From the NCBI RefSeq assembly GCF_023161965.1, contig NZ_JALNTY010000001.1:372001-436000 (forward strand): a DNA stretch of 64,000 nt, read 5' to 3'. A program made the position numbers and the translations under genes. This DNA is from Anaerosoma tenue (GTDB lineage Bacteria > Actinomycetota > Coriobacteriia > Anaerosomatales > Anaerosomataceae). The notes beneath the pieces are model-generated. The model saw nothing but the letters and a program-made list of their open reading frames with translations, did no database searches and was not told the origin of the DNA. The first letter of the stretch is position 1, and every line of letters starts with the position of its first letter. Of the stretch, positions 31,194-50,703 are shown piece by piece.

Positions 31194-31738
31194 GCGCTCC
31201 ACACCTCATCCGTGAGCGTGGCGACGTACGGAAGCGTGCGCCACAGACCGCCGAGATCGAGTCCGTAGCCCACGAGGAACCGGTCAGGCACCGCGAAGCC
31301 GCGGTACTCGATGGGCAGATCTGCGAGTCGGCGGGCATCCTTGTCGAGCAGGGTGCACACCGCGATGCTCGCCGGCTTGCGCTGCCGCAGAACCCTCAGG
31401 AGGTAGTTCAGGGTGAGGCCGGTGTCGATGATGTCCTCCACCACGAGCACATCGCGACCCTCGATGGCATCGTCAAGGTCCTTGGTTATCCGCACCGAGG
31501 CGGCGGCGTCGGGACCGTACGCGGAGATCGACATGAAGTCGAGCGTCAACGGCCGTTCGATGGCGCGGCAAAGGTCGGCCAGGAACATCACGCCGCCCTT
31601 CAGCACGGTCACCAGAGCGAGGTCACGATCTTCGTAGTCGGCGGTGATCTCAGACCCCAGCCGTCGGACAGCCGCCTGGATCTCGACGGAATCGTGCAGC
31701 ACACGCTCTATACGCGAGTCGGGGAAAGTCATGCTCAT
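31190..31738 (-). CDS. hpt: Hypoxanthine phosphoribosyltransferase
   Basis: Hpt converts hypoxanthine or guanine to IMP or GMP. The 182-residue protein has VLKGGVMFLADLCR, the PRPP loop VVEDIIDTGLTL and the C-terminal LVGYGLDL motif. It overlaps the preceding PD-(D/E)XK-like gene by four bases and the K+ channel gene downstream. Confidence 0.95.
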   Translation of the reverse strand: MSMTFPDSRIERVLHDSVEIQAAVRRLGSEITADYEDRDLALVTVLKGGVMFLADLCRAIERPLTLDFMSISAYGPDAAASVRITKDLDDAIEGRDVLVVEDIIDTGLTLNYLLRVLRQRKPASIAVCTLLDKDARRLADLPIEYRGFAVPDRFLVGYGLDLGGLWRTLPYVATLTDEVWSA

Positions 31739-32208
31739 GACCGCTCGCCGCCCTCATCGCGCGCTCCGCGCTCCTTCACTGCGGCGCCGTGGTCTGCGTC
31801 CAGCCCTCCGCCCTCGGAATGGTCCCTCGATCGCACCGGGATGCCGTACTTGAAGAGGAGCTTACGGAAGTCCTTCTGATAGAGGATCTTGATGGACACC
31901 TCGGGATAGAGCTCCTTGAGCCGACGGACCTTGCGGTTCTTCTTCGTGACCAGCTTCTGACTCATCGTGGTCAACTCGATGTAAAGGTCGAACTCCGGCA
32001 GATAGAAGTCGGGCGCGAACGACGCGAGCACGTTGCCGTGCCGGTCCCATTCGAGCGGGAAGGTCGTGGGCTCGTACTCCCACGCGATACGATAGAAGTC
32101 GAGTATCTGGGCAGCGACGCGTTCGCTCGGATGCGCGAATGCGATGCTCGCGACCCGCTCCGAGACGGGCAACCGCTGTTCGAGATCGTCAAGGCGTTCG
32201 TCGGTCAT
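31735..32208 (-). CDS. PD-(D/E)XK nuclease-like protein of unknown function
   Basis: The 157-residue protein has no family I can name. Its core reads FAPDFYLPEFDLYIELTTMS, that is PD at 66-67 and E78-x-T80, followed by basic residues KKNRKVRR (89-96). A strand-helix pattern SIKILYQKDFRKLLFKYG comes next. This arrangement resembles compact PD-(D/E)XK nuclease folds with a variant third catalytic residue. The acidic, polar C-terminal tail looks disordered. It starts 5 bases after merR and overlaps hpt, so it is co-expressed with both. Nuclease activity is inference. Confidence 0.6.
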   Translation of the reverse strand: MTDERLDDLEQRLPVSERVASIAFAHPSERVAAQILDFYRIAWEYEPTTFPLEWDRHGNVLASFAPDFYLPEFDLYIELTTMSQKLVTKKNRKVRRLKELYPEVSIKILYQKDFRKLLFKYGIPVRSRDHSEGGGLDADHGAAVKERGARDEGGERS

Positions 32209-32213
32209 CGTGT

Positions 32214-32924
32214 TCAGTTGACATCCTCGAACAGGCGGCCCACGGAGCGGCGGAGCATGTGCTCCTTCAGTTGCCCGGAACCCTTCATCAGTTCAGCAAG
32301 CGTCTCGAGCAACCGCTGTCGCGCCTCGGGAGTGCGGTGGCGCATGGCCGGCATGAGGATCTGCTGGAAGAACGTGGCCTCACGTTCGGCGAACGTCTCG
32401 TACATGCGCAGGTGACGCGGCTCGATACCGAACCGCCTGAGGTCCCAACATGTGTGGGCGACGGCCACATCGGGGCCGGCGAGCTCGTCGCCGTGATCCC
32501 CTTTCACCAGGGTGACGATCCCGTACGAGGCGAGTTCGCGGACGAACGCGGTAGGGAGACCGAGCACCTCGGGCGCGCGCTCCACAGGCACGGTCTCGGC
32601 GTCTTCGAACGGAAGCGACATCGGCTCCGTCTTCTCGATGGCGGGACGGAGCTCGGCGGGCACTTTGCCCTTGTCGAGGTCGTCCAGCTTCTCACGGATG
32701 ACCGCCAGCGGCATGAAGTGCTCCTTCTGCAGCCGCAACACGAGTTCGAGCCGCTGCACGTCCGCCGGGCGGAACTTCCGGTAGCCGCCGGGTGTCCTCT
32801 CGGGTGCGATCAGCCTCTCGTCCTCCAGGTAGCGCACCTTGGAGATCGTCAGGTCGCCGTAGGTGTCTGACAGCGTCTCGACCACTTCTCCGATGGTCTT
32901 GTAGTCGCGGACCTTGGCTGCCAT
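32214..32924 (-). CDS. MerR family transcriptional regulator (FtsR/Rv1828-like)
   Basis: The 236-residue protein has an N-terminal MerR winged helix (TIGEVVETLS, then SKVRYLEDERLI and PGGYRKFRPADVQRLELV). The C-terminal domain of about 150 residues resembles Rv1828/FtsR rather than metal-sensing MerR proteins, with no cysteine cluster. In corynebacteria the homologue regulates ftsZ and sits beside a GarA/OdhI-type FHA gene, exactly as here. The gene begins immediately at the FHA stop. The target is not visible. Confidence 0.88.
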   Translation of the reverse strand: MAAKVRDYKTIGEVVETLSDTYGDLTISKVRYLEDERLIAPERTPGGYRKFRPADVQRLELVLRLQKEHFMPLAVIREKLDDLDKGKVPAELRPAIEKTEPMSLPFEDAETVPVERAPEVLGLPTAFVRELASYGIVTLVKGDHGDELAGPDVAVAHTCWDLRRFGIEPRHLRMYETFAEREATFFQQILMPAMRHRTPEARQRLLETLAELMKGSGQLKEHMLRRSVGRLFEDVN

Positions 32925-33380
32925 CTAGGCAGCACCTCCTCCGCACACGAAAACCATCTGGAACCGTCCGATCTGGACCGTATCACCACTGCTGAGACGG
33001 GCTTCGCTCACGACCTCCTCGTTCACGTACGTACCGTTCAGCGAGCCCGCGTCCACCAGCCTGACCTCGTCGGCGTTCACGAGGAGGCGCGCATGGTTGC
33101 GCGAGACGGTCACGTCGTTGAGGAAGATGTCGCTCTCGGGATCGCGGCCGATCGTCAGCTCAGGACGCTCGAGATAGAACCGCTCCCCTACCTCGATGCC
33201 CTTACGCACGATCAGAACCGGGACCTCGCTCGCGGCGATCTCGGTCTCGTAGACTGCCGTCGACGGCTCCGAGACCACCTCGAAGGATGCTGTGGCCCCT
33301 TCGATCTTGACCCCGCATGAAGGACAGACGGCGTCCTCAGGCGTGAGTGCGGCGCCGCATTCGGGGCATTGGCCCATCAT
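32925..33380 (-). CDS. Zinc-ribbon FHA-domain protein (GarA/OdhI-like)
   Basis: The 151-residue protein starts with a zinc ribbon (CPECGAALTPEDAVCPSCG), then a linker with Thr residues (STAVYETE, about residue 43-50), and a C-terminal FHA domain (LTIGRDPESDIFLND, SRNHARL, GSLNGTYVN). FHA binds phosphothreonine. In GarA and OdhI, phosphorylation of an N-terminal Thr switches 2-oxoglutarate metabolism; whether this protein does the same is unknown. ATG 33380 is chosen because AGGAG lies six bases upstream; the first ATG, 33386, abuts it. Confidence 0.88.
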   Translation of the reverse strand: MMGQCPECGAALTPEDAVCPSCGVKIEGATASFEVVSEPSTAVYETEIAASEVPVLIVRKGIEVGERFYLERPELTIGRDPESDIFLNDVTVSRNHARLLVNADEVRLVDAGSLNGTYVNEEVVSEARLSSGDTVQIGRFQMVFVCGGGAA

Positions 33381-33420
33381 CACCATCTCCTGCCAGAGTC
33401 CTGCCGCGACACGCCGGACG

Positions 33421-33681
33421 TCAGTCGAGTAGGCCGAACTCCCGCGTCTTGAACGACTGTGCGATCTGGGTCTCGAGAGCCTCGAGCACGCCCGGGTTCT
33501 CCAGCACCTTCACGAGCCGCTCCTCGCTGAGGCGGTTCTTCACGTACGGGTCGTTCAGAGCCTCGGTGAGCTTGCGCCCGCCCTTCACCTCGCGGATGAC
33601 GTACTCCACGACCCGCTCCTCGACACCGTCGATCGAGATCTCGTTCAGGAACTCGTGGATCTTCTCCGCAACACTCGCCAC
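33421..33681 (-). CDS. Small conserved-looking helical protein, unknown function
   Basis: I do not recognise a family. The 86-residue protein is predicted helical and soluble, with MASVAEKIHEFLNEISIDG at the start and a segment VVEYVIREVKGGRKLTEAL. It lacks cysteines and membrane segments. It lies between the FHA gene and the RsiG-like gene on the same strand with gaps of about 40 bases, and probably belongs to this regulatory cluster. Confidence 0.65.
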   Translation of the reverse strand: MASVAEKIHEFLNEISIDGVEERVVEYVIREVKGGRKLTEALNDPYVKNRLSEERLVKVLENPGVLEALETQIAQSFKTREFGLLD

Positions 33682-33725
33682 GCGGGCCTCCTTCGCTTCT
33701 GCGGACGTGCGTCCGTGCTCGCTTC

Positions 33726-34046
33726 TCAGTCTTCGTCGTCTTCTTCGTCCCAGACGTCGTCATCAGTCACATCGAACCGGGAGACTCCTCGCAGGTCGTT
33801 CGCGAGTATCTCTATCAACCTGTCTATGTCGCTGCCGAGGATGTCCCCTTTGCCCTCGGAACGGTCTTCCTTGAGCCGACGCACGAGCTCGGCGCGCAGT
33901 ATGTCGATCTTGCCGTGAAGCACGCGCCTCCGGTAGCTGACCTTCTGCTCTTCCTCGTACAACTCATCGAGCAGTCCGCGCAGCTCATCGACCGTACGAT
34001 CACTGAGATTCAGCAGCGCGTCGTCGGATGCACCTCTGTCCCCCAC
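33726..34046 (-). CDS. RsiG-like anti-sigma/aerial-mycelium-type protein
   Basis: The 106-residue helical protein contains E33-x3-S37-x2-R40-x3-H44-x3-D48 in EEEQKVSYRRRVLHGKIDIL. This matches the c-di-GMP-binding motif of RsiG, E-x3-S-x2-R-x3-Q-x3-D, with His in place of Gln. RsiG in Streptomyces sequesters the sigma factor WhiG when bound to c-di-GMP. Here the first helix region resembles LSDRTVDELRGLLDELY and the tail is strongly acidic. No sigma factor gene lies nearby. The function is inferred; the His substitution could alter or abolish nucleotide binding. Confidence 0.65.
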   Translation of the reverse strand: MGDRGASDDALLNLSDRTVDELRGLLDELYEEEQKVSYRRRVLHGKIDILRAELVRRLKEDRSEGKGDILGSDIDRLIEILANDLRGVSRFDVTDDDVWDEEDDED

Positions 34047-34167
34047 GAGCCCACCTCCAACAACCTCACCCGCATGCCACTGGTCGGGAAGATTGTAGCA
34101 CGCGCTCCTGTCACGACGGGCTTGACCTCGACTCCAACCTCAGACCGCAGAACGCCTGTCCCGAGGG

Positions 34168-34959
34168 TCAGGTCAGGGTGGAGCGCACCACGTGGTCCTG
34201 ACGCATGCGCCCGGCCATCTCGAGTTCGTCCCCGCTCAGCGTCGCGGGTTCGAGCTCGACCGAGAAGACCCGACCGACGGCCTCGGCCACCGCCGATGTG
34301 ACCTCGTCCCATGAGGGGCGTCGCCCGATCACCGCCGCGATGGTGGCGGTGGAACGTTCCAGCGCGCGGGTGTGCTCATCGTTAAGCATGAAGACGCGGG
34401 CTTCGCGGGTCACGTCGCGGTCTACCACGAACGATCCGTGCTGCAGGCAGCTGTCGCCGCTCCAGACCTGGGCGCTCCCCGAGAGCTTCGCCGCCCCGAG
34501 CGACAGGTCGGCAGACGTGGCGTGCAGATAGCACGCGCCCGACCCGCGTTCGCCGCGATCCCGCGCCGTGAGCGAGGCGTCCACGCCAAGCGCGCGGTAC
34601 GCCTCGGCCAAAGCCTCGCACAGCACCGCGTAGCTGCGCCTGACTCCCCGCGGGAGGCCATCGGCCACACCCGCCACGATCGAGTACGTGAGCTCATCGT
34701 CGTGCAGCACGCCCCGGCCGCCGGTGGGGCGCCGACAGATCTCGAGACCCTCGGCGGCACAGTACGGCAGGTCCACATCGTCCGCGCTCTGGAACCGTCC
34801 GAGCGAGACCGCAGGTGGAGTCCACCGGTACAGCCGGAGCGTCGGCGGGGCCTCAGCGGCGGCATGCGCGACGAGCATCGCGCGATCGACCGCCATGTTC
34901 CACGCGCCGCCGGCAGCCCCGTCCACGATCAACCGCCAGCGGCCACCCGACCGGGTCAT
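34168..34959 (-). CDS. Lipoate-protein ligase/octanoyltransferase family protein (LipM/LplA-like)
   Basis: The 263-residue biotin/lipoate-ligase-fold protein has RRPTGGRGVLHDDELTYS, a Cys in GSGACYLHAT, and AKLSGSAQVW followed by CLQHGS. The Cys-containing loop matches LipM-type octanoyltransferases, which use an acyl-enzyme; LplA ligases lack that Cys. It probably acylates the lipoyl domain of GcvH, encoded in the same operon. ATG 34959 overlaps the gcvPB stop as ATGA; the frame opens a little further upstream. Confidence 0.82.
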   Translation of the reverse strand: MTRSGGRWRLIVDGAAGGAWNMAVDRAMLVAHAAAEAPPTLRLYRWTPPAVSLGRFQSADDVDLPYCAAEGLEICRRPTGGRGVLHDDELTYSIVAGVADGLPRGVRRSYAVLCEALAEAYRALGVDASLTARDRGERGSGACYLHATSADLSLGAAKLSGSAQVWSGDSCLQHGSFVVDRDVTREARVFMLNDEHTRALERSTATIAAVIGRRPSWDEVTSAVAEAVGRVFSVELEPATLSGDELEMAGRMRQDHVVRSTLT

Positions 34960-36473
34960 CGCCCGGAGCCATCTCCCGGCGACCACGCGACATCGGCGTT
35001 CTTGACCGCAGCCGCCTCATCGAGCCTGCGCACCGGCGTCGAGTACGGCGCGCCATGCAGCAATCCGGGATCCTCGGCAGCCTCCTCGGCGATGCGGCGC
35101 AACACCGCTGCGAACCGCTCGAGCGTCCCCTTGCTCTCCGTCTCTGTGGGCTCCACCATCATCGCCTCGTCCACGATCAACGGGAAGTACACCGTGGGCG
35201 GATGGATGCCGTAGTCGAGCAGCCGCTTCGCGACATCCAGGGTGCGGACACCGGTGGACTTGCGCAGCGGGCCGCCCGACATCACGAACTCGTGCATGCA
35301 TGTGCGGTCGTAGGTCACGGGCCATGCATCCGCCAACAGCGTCTTCAGGTAGTTCGCCGAGAGCACCGCCTGGCCCGAGATGTCCCGCAGGCCGTCGCCA
35401 CCCACAGCGCGGATGTACGTGTACGCCCTCACGAGCACGCCGAAGTTCCCCGCGTACGACCGTACGCGGCCGATCGACCGCTCGGGATAGGCGAACGCGA
35501 AGCCACCGTCACGCTGAGCCACCACCGGCCCCGGCAGATACGACGCGAGCGCCTCGCTCACCGCCACGGGCCCTGCCCCCGGACCGCCCCCGCCGTGCGG
35601 CGTCGCGAAGGTCTTGTGAAGGTTGATGTGCAATGCGTCGAAGCCCATATCCCCCGGCCGCGACCAGCCCATGATCGCGTTGAGGTTCGCGCCGTCGCAA
35701 TACGCCAGAGCACCCACCTCGTGCACCGCAGAGGTGATCTCGAGGATGTTCTCGTCGAACAGGCCCAGCGTGTTGGGGTTGGTGAGCATCAGCGCGGCAA
35801 CGTCGGTGTCGAGCAGTCGCTTGAGCGCGGCCACATCCACGCCGCCCCGCTCGTCGCTCGGCACCTGCACGACCTCGTAGCCGCACATGGCGACGGTGGC
35901 CGGGTTGGTGCCGTGCGCGGAATCGGGCACGAGCACCCGGCGCCTCGGATCGCCGTTGGCGGTGTGATAGGCACGGATGGTCAACAGCCCGGTGAGCTCC
36001 CCGTGCGCGCCGGCCGCCGGCTGCAGCGAGACCGCCGGCAGGCCAGCGACCTCCGCGAGCGCCTCCTGCAGCCCCCACATGAGCTCGAGCGCGCCCTGCA
36101 CGGTCTCCTCGGGCTGATACGGATGGATCCTCGCGAAGCCGGGCAGGCGGCACGCCCACTCGTCTACCTTCGGGTTGTACTTCATGGTGCAACTGCCGAG
36201 CGGATAGAATCCGCTGTCCACGCCGAAGTTGGCGCTCGCAAGATGCTCGTAGTGGCGGGCGAGCTCCACCTCGGTCACATGCGGCAACGCGGGTGCCATC
36301 GCTCTTGCGTGTCCGCCGAGGACGTCCTCCAGATCGACCGAGGGCACGTCGAGCACCGGTGGTTCGACACAGCGCGACTCCTCGGCTCCCCGCTCGAAGA
36401 TCAGCGTACCGGTGAGCGGCTCTCTGGTACCCGCCTTCGCGGTCCGTGCATCGATGCGATCGGTGTCGCTCAT
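34956..36473 (-). CDS. gcvPB: Glycine dehydrogenase (decarboxylating) subunit 2
   Basis: This is the PLP-bearing half of the split P-protein of glycine cleavage. The cofactor lysine is in NLHKTFATPHGGGGPG, and GSCTMKYNPK and HINLHKT are typical. At 505 residues it is a normal length for subunit 2. It overlaps gcvPA by four bases and the LipM-like gene by four. With gcvPA it decarboxylates glycine and loads aminomethyl onto GcvH. Confidence 0.96.
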   Translation of the reverse strand: MSDTDRIDARTAKAGTREPLTGTLIFERGAEESRCVEPPVLDVPSVDLEDVLGGHARAMAPALPHVTEVELARHYEHLASANFGVDSGFYPLGSCTMKYNPKVDEWACRLPGFARIHPYQPEETVQGALELMWGLQEALAEVAGLPAVSLQPAAGAHGELTGLLTIRAYHTANGDPRRRVLVPDSAHGTNPATVAMCGYEVVQVPSDERGGVDVAALKRLLDTDVAALMLTNPNTLGLFDENILEITSAVHEVGALAYCDGANLNAIMGWSRPGDMGFDALHINLHKTFATPHGGGGPGAGPVAVSEALASYLPGPVVAQRDGGFAFAYPERSIGRVRSYAGNFGVLVRAYTYIRAVGGDGLRDISGQAVLSANYLKTLLADAWPVTYDRTCMHEFVMSGGPLRKSTGVRTLDVAKRLLDYGIHPPTVYFPLIVDEAMMVEPTETESKGTLERFAAVLRRIAEEAAEDPGLLHGAPYSTPVRRLDEAAAVKNADVAWSPGDGSGR

Positions 36474-45793: not shown

Positions 45794-48304
45794 TCAGCCG
45801 TTGGCTATCGTCTCGCGGACCTCGGCCACGTAGCGTTCAAGCAACTCCGCCGCCCGCTCAGCGGAGTCACCCTCAGCGTAGACCGCCACCTGGGCCTCCG
45901 TGGCGTGTGGGAGCACGAGCACCCAGCCGTCGTCGTGCGGTATGCGCACACCCTCGATCACGTCGACCTCACTCGTGCGCGAGACCGCCGCCATCGACCG
46001 CATCACCACGCCCTTGCGGTCGAAAGGACAGAACACCGACGTCTCCTGGAGGAAGAATTCCGGAAGCGCGGCCACCACGTCGTCCAGGTCCATCCCGTGG
46101 CGATCGAGCAGTGTGAGCAACATGCCGAAGGACATCACGGCATCGTACCCTGCGAGGAAGTGCGGGTACACGAAGCCGCCGCGGCGGGAGCCGGCGAACC
46201 CGATCGCCGGATCGAGCGCGGCGGCGGACAGCGCCCGCCGTGATGTTCCGGTGCGACGTACGAAGTGACCGGCCTCTCCGGCGATCCTCTCCACCGCGGT
46301 GGATGCGGTCACCGGCACGGCGATCCCAACGCCGTCCTTGCGCGAGAGCCCGGAGTTCGCCCACAACCAGACCAGGGCATGAAGCGCCGTGTCATGGTCG
46401 AGGATGCGTCCCGCCGGGGTGACGAGCGTGATCCGCTCGGCCGTGGAGTCCATCAGCACGCCCACATCCGCCTGGAACATGTCCACCGACCGCGCCACGC
46501 GCTTGAGGACGTCCGCGCGGCTCTCGGTATCCACGGGCGTCTGCTCGGAGTCGACGTAGGCACGAAGGCCGATCAGATCCACGCCCCACTGGGCTGCGAC
46601 CGTTGGGAGCACGAACGATGCCGGACTGAGCCCCATGTCCACGACGGCCGTGTAACGCCTGCGGGACGCGCTGGCGTCGTCGATCGCCGTCGTGAGGCCG
46701 GTGGTGTAGTACTCGATCGCACGGGGCGGGTACATGATCGAACCCACCTGGTCGAAGAACGCACGCCGGAACTCACCCCGGAAGTAGAGCCGTTCGACCT
46801 TCTTCTCCTGCCCCGTGGACAGGTCGATGCCCTCGGCATCGTAGAAGTGGATCTCGATCGACTGCGGGTCGCCATCGGCGATGCAGATGTGGATGCCGCC
46901 GTTGACGCGCATGTCGCGCGTGGTGAACCGCGTGACCGCGGGTGACGCCACGCGCAGGTCGCGCACGTGACATCCTGTGAAGTTGAGACCCGCCGCGACC
47001 GCGCGCTTCACCATCCGTGCCGCTGCGCTCGAATCACGGCTCACCACGACGTGCGACCTCGCCGGCAGCAGGCTCCCGAACGCCTGGGCCACGCGCAAGC
47101 CAAGGTCCGGAGTGATGTCGATGCTCACGAGCCCGGCGATGCCGTCGGGACCGAAGAGCGAGCGCACTCCCCGCGACTCCCAGATCAGCGAGGAGTTCAC
47201 GAGAGCGCCGGCGTCGATGCGCTTGAACGGGTAGACCTGTACGTCGTTCCCCACCGCCGCCCCGTGCCCCACCACGGATTCGTCGCCGATCACGGCCCCC
47301 TGCTCCACACGTGCGCCGGCACGGATGTCCACGCTCCGGCACAGCACGGCGCCGCTCACCCGGGACCACTTGCCCACGAACGAGTCGTTCCACACGATCG
47401 AGTGTTCCGTCTGAGCGTCGTAACCCACCAGGCAGTTGTCGCCGATCACGGAGTACGGGCCGATCTTCGCCCCCGCGCGGATCGTGGTGTTGGCGCCGAT
47501 CACCGCCTTGGGCGATATCTCGGCCGTGGGATCGATGGTGGCGCCCGGACCCACCCACACGTCGTCTTTGGTCCTGGCGCCCGGTATGTAGATCATCGCC
47601 TTGCCGTCGAGTATGTCTTCATGGACCTCGCGGTACCCCTCAAGGCTCCCCACGTCGGCCCAGTAGCCATCCACCACGCACCCGTAGAGCGGATGCCCTT
47701 CGGCCATGAGCAGCGGGAAGAGGTCCGAGGAGAAGTCGAACGCCTGACCCTCGGGGATGAAATCGAGCACCATGGGGTCCATCACGTAGATGCCGGTGTT
47801 GATCGTGTCGCTGAACACCTGGCCCCACGAGGGCTTCTCTAAGAAGCGCTCGATCCTGCCATCGTCGTCGGTGATGACCACGCCGAACTCGAGCGGATCG
47901 GGCACGCGCTTGAGCGCGATGGTGACGACGGCGCCCTTCGCCTTGTGGAACTCGATGACCTCGGTGAGGTCGATATCGGTGAGCGCGTCGCCCGAGATCA
48001 CGAGAAAGGTCTCCGTGAGCGCCTCGGCGGCGTTCTTCACCGAGCCCGCGGTGCCGAGCGGCGTCTCCTCGATCGCGTAGCTGATGTCCATGCCCCACTC
48101 GTCGCCATCGCCGAAGTAGTCCTCGATGACCTGCGGCATGAACGCCAGCGTGGCGACCACCTCGCTGATGCCATGGTGTTTCACGAGCCCGAGTATGTGT
48201 TCCATGACCGGCTGGTTGACGACCGGTACCATCGGTTTGGGGCGCATGCTCGTGAGGGGACGCAGACGCGTGCCCTCGCCACCCGCCATCACCACAGCCT
48301 TCAT
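45794..48304 (-). CDS. Sugar nucleotidyltransferase with left-handed beta-helix and degenerate phosphomannomutase domain
   Basis: The 836-residue protein fuses three parts. Residues about 1-235 are a nucleotidyltransferase ([21 protein letters not shown]), likely a mannose-1-phosphate guanylyltransferase. Residues about 250-370 are hexapeptide repeats. Residues about 375-830 have phosphohexomutase folds, but the phosphoserine TASHNP loop is replaced near [13 protein letters not shown], and the metal loop is replaced by DSTAERI. The mutase part is therefore probably inactive, as in other members of this fusion family. It may supply GDP-sugars for envelope glycans, and it overlaps pgsA by four bases. 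Confidence 0.82.

Positions 48305-50626: not shown

Positions 50627-50703
<77 letters not shown>

Follow-up and report, generated by a model that had tools for sequence, protein, structure and literature searches.

A short open reading frame on the minus strand of a 64,000-nucleotide stretch of the Anaerosoma tenue genome, referred to here as the window, raises the question of whether this organism has a c-di-GMP-dependent anti-sigma factor of the RsiG family, and if so, which sigma factor it holds and which genes respond to it. The frame runs from a GTG start at 34046 to a stop at 33726, limits that the initial annotation had already assigned, and its product matches the Pfam RsiG family (PF22802) with 67.9 bits (E=6e-19; cut-off 27). 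It also matches the PDB entries 7lq2, 7lq3, 7lq4 and 6pfj, with E=7e-11 for Rubrobacter radiotolerans RsiG (7lq2/7lq3) and E=4e-10 for Streptomyces venezuelae RsiG (6pfj). The AF2 model shows a long helix (residues 19–63) that carries the E33-S37-R40-H44-D48 motif, followed by a helix at residues 71–86; a Foldseek search with this model gave no useful match, as expected of one long helix. Since the motif is present once in the 106 residues, the protein represents the single-motif form of RsiG, as had been proposed at the outset. All five motif residues are unchanged across 35 RsiGs drawn from several classes, a set gathered partly via an LHG[KR]ID pattern, so that the invariance of H44 within it is biased. 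Judged from sequence, the motif match is far above chance, and c-di-GMP binding by this RsiG is likely.

Table 1 Features of the rsiG locus (window positions) and of the HExxH locus elsewhere in the genome (L067 positions).
Feature	Position	Strand	Evidence
ftsR, MerR-family regulator	32214..32924	(-)	NCBIfam NF050798 FtsR 203 bits, cut-off 150
FHA protein, OdhI/GarA type	32925..33386	(-)	FHA 2.6e-19; OdhI model 1.4e-34, below its cut-off
p86, 86-aa conserved protein between rsiG and FHA gene	33421..33681	(-)	no Pfam match over cut-off
rsiG, single-motif RsiG anti-sigma factor, 106 aa	33726..34046	(-)	PF22802, PDB matches, AF2
Predicted c-di-GMP-binding motif E33-x3-S37-x2-R40-x3-H44-x3-D48, EQKVSYRRRVLHGKID	33903..33950	(-)	codon positions
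Ribosome-binding site GGAGG, 7 nt 5' of rsiG GTG	34047..34059	(-)	sequence
Lipoate/octanoyl ligase-like protein, upstream of rsiG (gcv side)	34168..34986	(-)	Pfam LplA-B_cat 2.7e-32
WhiG-type candidate promoter of HExxH gene	L067 1501-1527 (G000:C4)	(-)	consensus match
c-di-GMP-I aptamer of HExxH leader	L067 1368-1459 (G000:C4)	(-)	Rfam model, 55.0 bits
HExxH ORF start	L067 1309, or ~1273 by alignment (G000:C4)	(-)	

The histidine that replaces glutamine in the motif had been highlighted as a notable change, a view that our comparison does not sustain. In motif 1 of RsiG, Gln is often His, which is able to make the same guanine stacking (PMC8325347). Histidine occupies this position in 30 of 30 Anaerosomatales RsiGs, which were retrieved with the Pfam model and hence unbiased by the motif, while 15 single-motif RsiGs in a phylum-wide sample divide into six with His and nine with Gln; the wider RsiG set leans to His, having been collected partly by the LHG[KR]ID pattern. 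The substitution is a common natural variant and not special, and a degenerate motif was ruled out, His being the rule in Anaerosomatales. This order lies within the Coriobacteriia, and 65 of its 69 genomes contain RsiG (the host genome is 2.1 Mb and 99% complete), compared with none of 179 sampled genomes belonging to other parts of the class, where one sub-threshold match was seen. Across the phylum, 248 of 396 sampled genomes gave a match, so the family is wider than was shown by the previous survey, in which single-motif RsiGs were confined to Rubrobacteria and Thermoleophilia and Coriobacteria went unmentioned (PMC8325347).

No partner sigma had been noticed near rsiG, which holds for the 64-kb window but not for the genome. 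The genome-wide search for a WhiG-like sigma that had been advised returned one protein above the FliA_WhiG cut-off (281 bits; G000:C1:329738-330412), encoded 76 kb from rsiG and ~42 kb beyond the window edge, between a response regulator gene and xerC (named by inspection). This sigma scores 310 bits against S. venezuelae WhiG and 169 bits against FliA. Residues K53, G57, R58 and R43 of R. radiotolerans WhiG, including the K-x3-G-R contacts to c-di-GMP, are conserved in it and N47 is replaced by Ala; the solved FliA in the alignment is without the G and R of K-x3-G-R, and KYV[AG]GR was present in all 27 sigmas read. Like RsiG, the WhiG-type sigma is found in nearly every Anaerosomatales genome (66 of 69) and in none of the 179 sampled from the rest of Coriobacteriia, and the Anaerosomatales genomes missing either one are draft assemblies. 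Wherever the two genes share a contig (19 of 19 genomes), they lie 58–105 kb apart (median 75 kb) in constant relative orientation. The genome also encodes 11 GGDEF proteins above cut-off, one of them with an EAL domain. From these sequence comparisons, the partner of RsiG is most likely the WhiG-type sigma of the same genome.

As to the genes under its control, FlhA was detected in none of the 69 Anaerosomatales genomes and a flagellar system was thereby ruled out, so the output is expected to be pili and not swimming. The pattern TAAA-N14-16-GCCGATA occurs at ~105 sites in these genomes, against 16 for a reversed control pattern, and in 87 of 104 sites TAAA is followed by G, a base that the search did not specify. 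Among 104 classified sites, 25 lie 5' of pilA, encoding the major pilin, and three lie before a PilV-like prepilin gene, while no pilin was found downstream of any of the 16 control sites. When pilA genes were gathered starting from the pilin protein and not from the promoter, all 29 that were read carried a candidate promoter T[AC]AAG-N14/15-GCCGATA with at most two mismatches, 52–77 nt upstream of the start codon, a level of agreement reached by 15 of 1160 shuffled pilA upstream regions. The match is exact at the pilA of A. tenue, which belongs to a cluster encoding PilB, PilC, prepilin peptidase and PilM/N/O-like proteins (names by inspection), and a two-mismatch site precedes a PilV-like gene in the same genome. 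All of these are candidate promoters, identified by their match to the consensus. For Rubrobacter, RsiG-WhiG has been proposed to control a type IV pilus regulon (PMC8325347), and cultured Anaerosomatales are described as non-motile and piliated, with piliation restricted in one of them to growth on solid iron mineral (PMC9686372). Since candidate promoters precede all 29 pilA genes, RsiG and the sigma co-occur, and FlhA is absent, the switch most likely controls type IV pili; read from sequence in this way, its role is probably the one put forward for Rubrobacter. We found no report in the literature of an RsiG-WhiG pilus switch in Coriobacteriia.

Further candidate targets in the order encode GGDEF, EAL, PilB-type ATPase and CheB proteins. 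Matches before genes for CheB, a NapC/NirT-type cytochrome and thioredoxin (L090, L091, L079, L099, L069, L070) were each seen in a pair of genomes. Within the window and the GGDEF loci that were read, one two-mismatch site was detected, at 47421, which is likely due to chance, and none of the GGDEF genes read has a close promoter match.

Other readings of the locus make different predictions about the sigma and the signal. RsiG might hold a different, new sigma, as the initial annotation had surmised from the missing neighbour, for example one that is SigB/SigF-like or SigH-like. Neither the operon nor the window encodes the sigma, and the genome does contain other sigma-70 family proteins (RpoD-like, SigB/SigF-like and SigH-like, named by inspection), but on the FliA/WhiG model none of these exceeds 132 bits, which falls short of the cut-off. 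Nearly every genome of the order has RsiG, as it does the WhiG-type sigma, neither was found in the genomes sampled from other parts of the class, and the WhiG residues touching c-di-GMP are conserved, which makes a new sigma quite unlikely. With a WhiG-type sigma encoded in the genome and tracking RsiG across the class, the proposal of a new target is not supported and was discarded. It is highly unlikely that FlgM holds this sigma as an ordinary flagellar FliA, with RsiG having another role or none: although the FliA_WhiG model that it passes does not tell FliA from WhiG, the protein is far nearer to WhiG in direct comparison, its candidate promoters precede pilins, and the order combines absence of FlhA with cultured members described as non-motile (PMC9686372).

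A remaining alternative accepts WhiG as the partner and questions the ligand. RsiG, with His in both subunits and an altered interface, could be blind to c-di-GMP and hold WhiG constitutively or in response to another signal, perhaps linked to FHA/FtsR. In line with this, the protein differs from Rubrobacter RsiG at sigma-interface positions (K60 to Q34, R72 to K46, D39 to N13, with R77 retained as R51), and the linkage of rsiG with the FHA gene and ftsR is deeply conserved. However, every nucleotide-contacting motif position is kept in RsiG, His is reported to be fit for the same guanine stacking (PMC8325347), and the c-di-GMP contacts of WhiG are retained as well, so that we judge c-di-GMP-blindness to be quite unlikely.

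A second recurrent promoter target in the order, outside the window, encodes a small secreted HExxH protein with the conserved core HE[VI]xHI[LI]DWR; in A. tenue its gene is divergent from a sortase-like gene (name by inspection). At this locus (L067 1309-1527, G000:C4:117538-120564), promoter, riboswitch and hairpin stand in a row. All 15 HExxH loci have a c-di-GMP-I riboswitch (RF01051 or RF03167) in the stretch from promoter to ORF, 36–43 nt downstream of the promoter, and the Rfam gathering score is exceeded in 13 of 13 leaders of the first set and in 15 overall, compared with no c-di-GMP-I riboswitch in 58 other promoter loci scanned. G at model position 11, which favours c-di-GMP over cGAMP, is present in all 15. 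Since a GC-rich hairpin follows the aptamer in 14 of 14 leaders tested, in some cases with a U-run, a terminator-type expression platform is plausible. The 15 loci are related to one another. As it was the promoter that led to them, the pairing of riboswitch with promoter does not constitute an independent test. We predict that the HExxH transcript is under two stacked layers of c-di-GMP control, RsiG/WhiG at initiation and the riboswitch in the leader, and give this a somewhat better than even chance. Within the limited literature library searched, we found no report in which a c-di-GMP riboswitch is combined with WhiG or another sigma.

These elements suggest a scheme, based on the solved Rubrobacter complex, in which two RsiG copies would pair as an antiparallel coiled coil and, at high c-di-GMP, clamp a c-di-GMP dimer against the WhiG-type sigma, keeping it off RNA polymerase. 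When c-di-GMP falls, WhiG would be released and transcription could begin at T[AC]AAG-N14/15-GCCGATA promoters, foremost that of pilA, which is read in the sequence and which we infer to be used by WhiG. At the HExxH gene, RsiG/WhiG would set whether RNA polymerase starts, and completion or translation of the transcript would then depend on the riboswitch in its leader, a two-step control whose response may be sharper than that of the co-regulated pili, or tuned differently. Taken as a whole, from the c-di-GMP-dependent hold on WhiG through pilA output to the doubly controlled HExxH transcript, we consider this scheme quite probable.

The closest known system is RsiG-WhiG of R. radiotolerans (7lq2, 7lq3, 7lq4; PMC8325347), with which A. 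tenue shares a short protein bearing one E-S-R-[Q/H]-D motif, a WhiG-type partner in the same genome, a non-sporulating unicellular host and a predicted type IV pilus regulon; the Rubrobacter protein works as a homodimer (PMC8325347). The system described here differs in having His for Gln, in belonging to Coriobacteriia, outside the classes reported for single-motif RsiG, in the candidate WhiG-type promoter immediately 5' of the major pilin gene (29/29), and in its recurrent c-di-GMP-I riboswitch target. RsiG-WhiG of Streptomyces (6pfj, 6pfv) shares the family, the motif and a homologous sigma with K-x3-G-R, but its RsiG carries two motifs in one chain and governs sporulation. For the HExxH gene, an analogy, and only that, is provided by Clostridioides difficile, which controls the secreted protease PPEP-1 by a c-di-GMP-I riboswitch (PMC11477304): both cases involve a secreted zinc-protease-like protein, a c-di-GMP-I riboswitch leader and cell-surface biology, whereas the HExxH transcript would in addition start at the promoter of a predicted c-di-GMP-gated sigma. 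RsiG of A. tenue belongs to a known family, and the stacked control by promoter and riboswitch would be new; if real, it would be a compact natural case of one second messenger gating one transcript at two steps. Our results place an order of Coriobacteriia among the groups known to have the RsiG switch in its single-motif form, which is probably the ancestral one, and support the view that the switch had type IV pili as an output early on, predating its use in sporulation. Because cultured Anaerosomatales are described as non-motile and piliated, whether c-di-GMP controls their pilus production via RsiG/WhiG is now directly testable.

The surroundings of rsiG bear on the history of the two RsiG forms. 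The order rsiG-FHA-ftsR is retained in nearly all of 80 related loci, with p86 between rsiG and the FHA gene in most, and Coriobacteriia loci have gcvPB and the lipoate-ligase-like gene upstream of rsiG. In the phylum-wide sample, the FHA gene stands beside rsiG in 15 of 15 single-motif loci, together with ftsR in 14 (one locus is cut by a contig end), unlike twin-motif rsiG, which has FHA-ftsR neighbours in none of 15 loci. Together with a previous study, in which odhI/garA-ftsR is a cluster conserved in actinobacteria whose upstream side varies (PMC6683498), this suggests that single-motif rsiG is at its old place and that twin-motif rsiG has been relocated. The segment at 32214-34046 of the window is conserved as rsiG-p86-FHA-ftsR across Coriobacteriia, and as rsiG-FHA-ftsR into Thermoleophilia. 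Rfam gave a single match in the window, a minus-strand tRNA gene at 50630-50703. Positions 31735-32208 encode a conserved 157-aa protein without a Pfam match over cut-off, in which the stretch APDFYLPEFDLYIELT...K looks PD-(D/E)xK nuclease-like.
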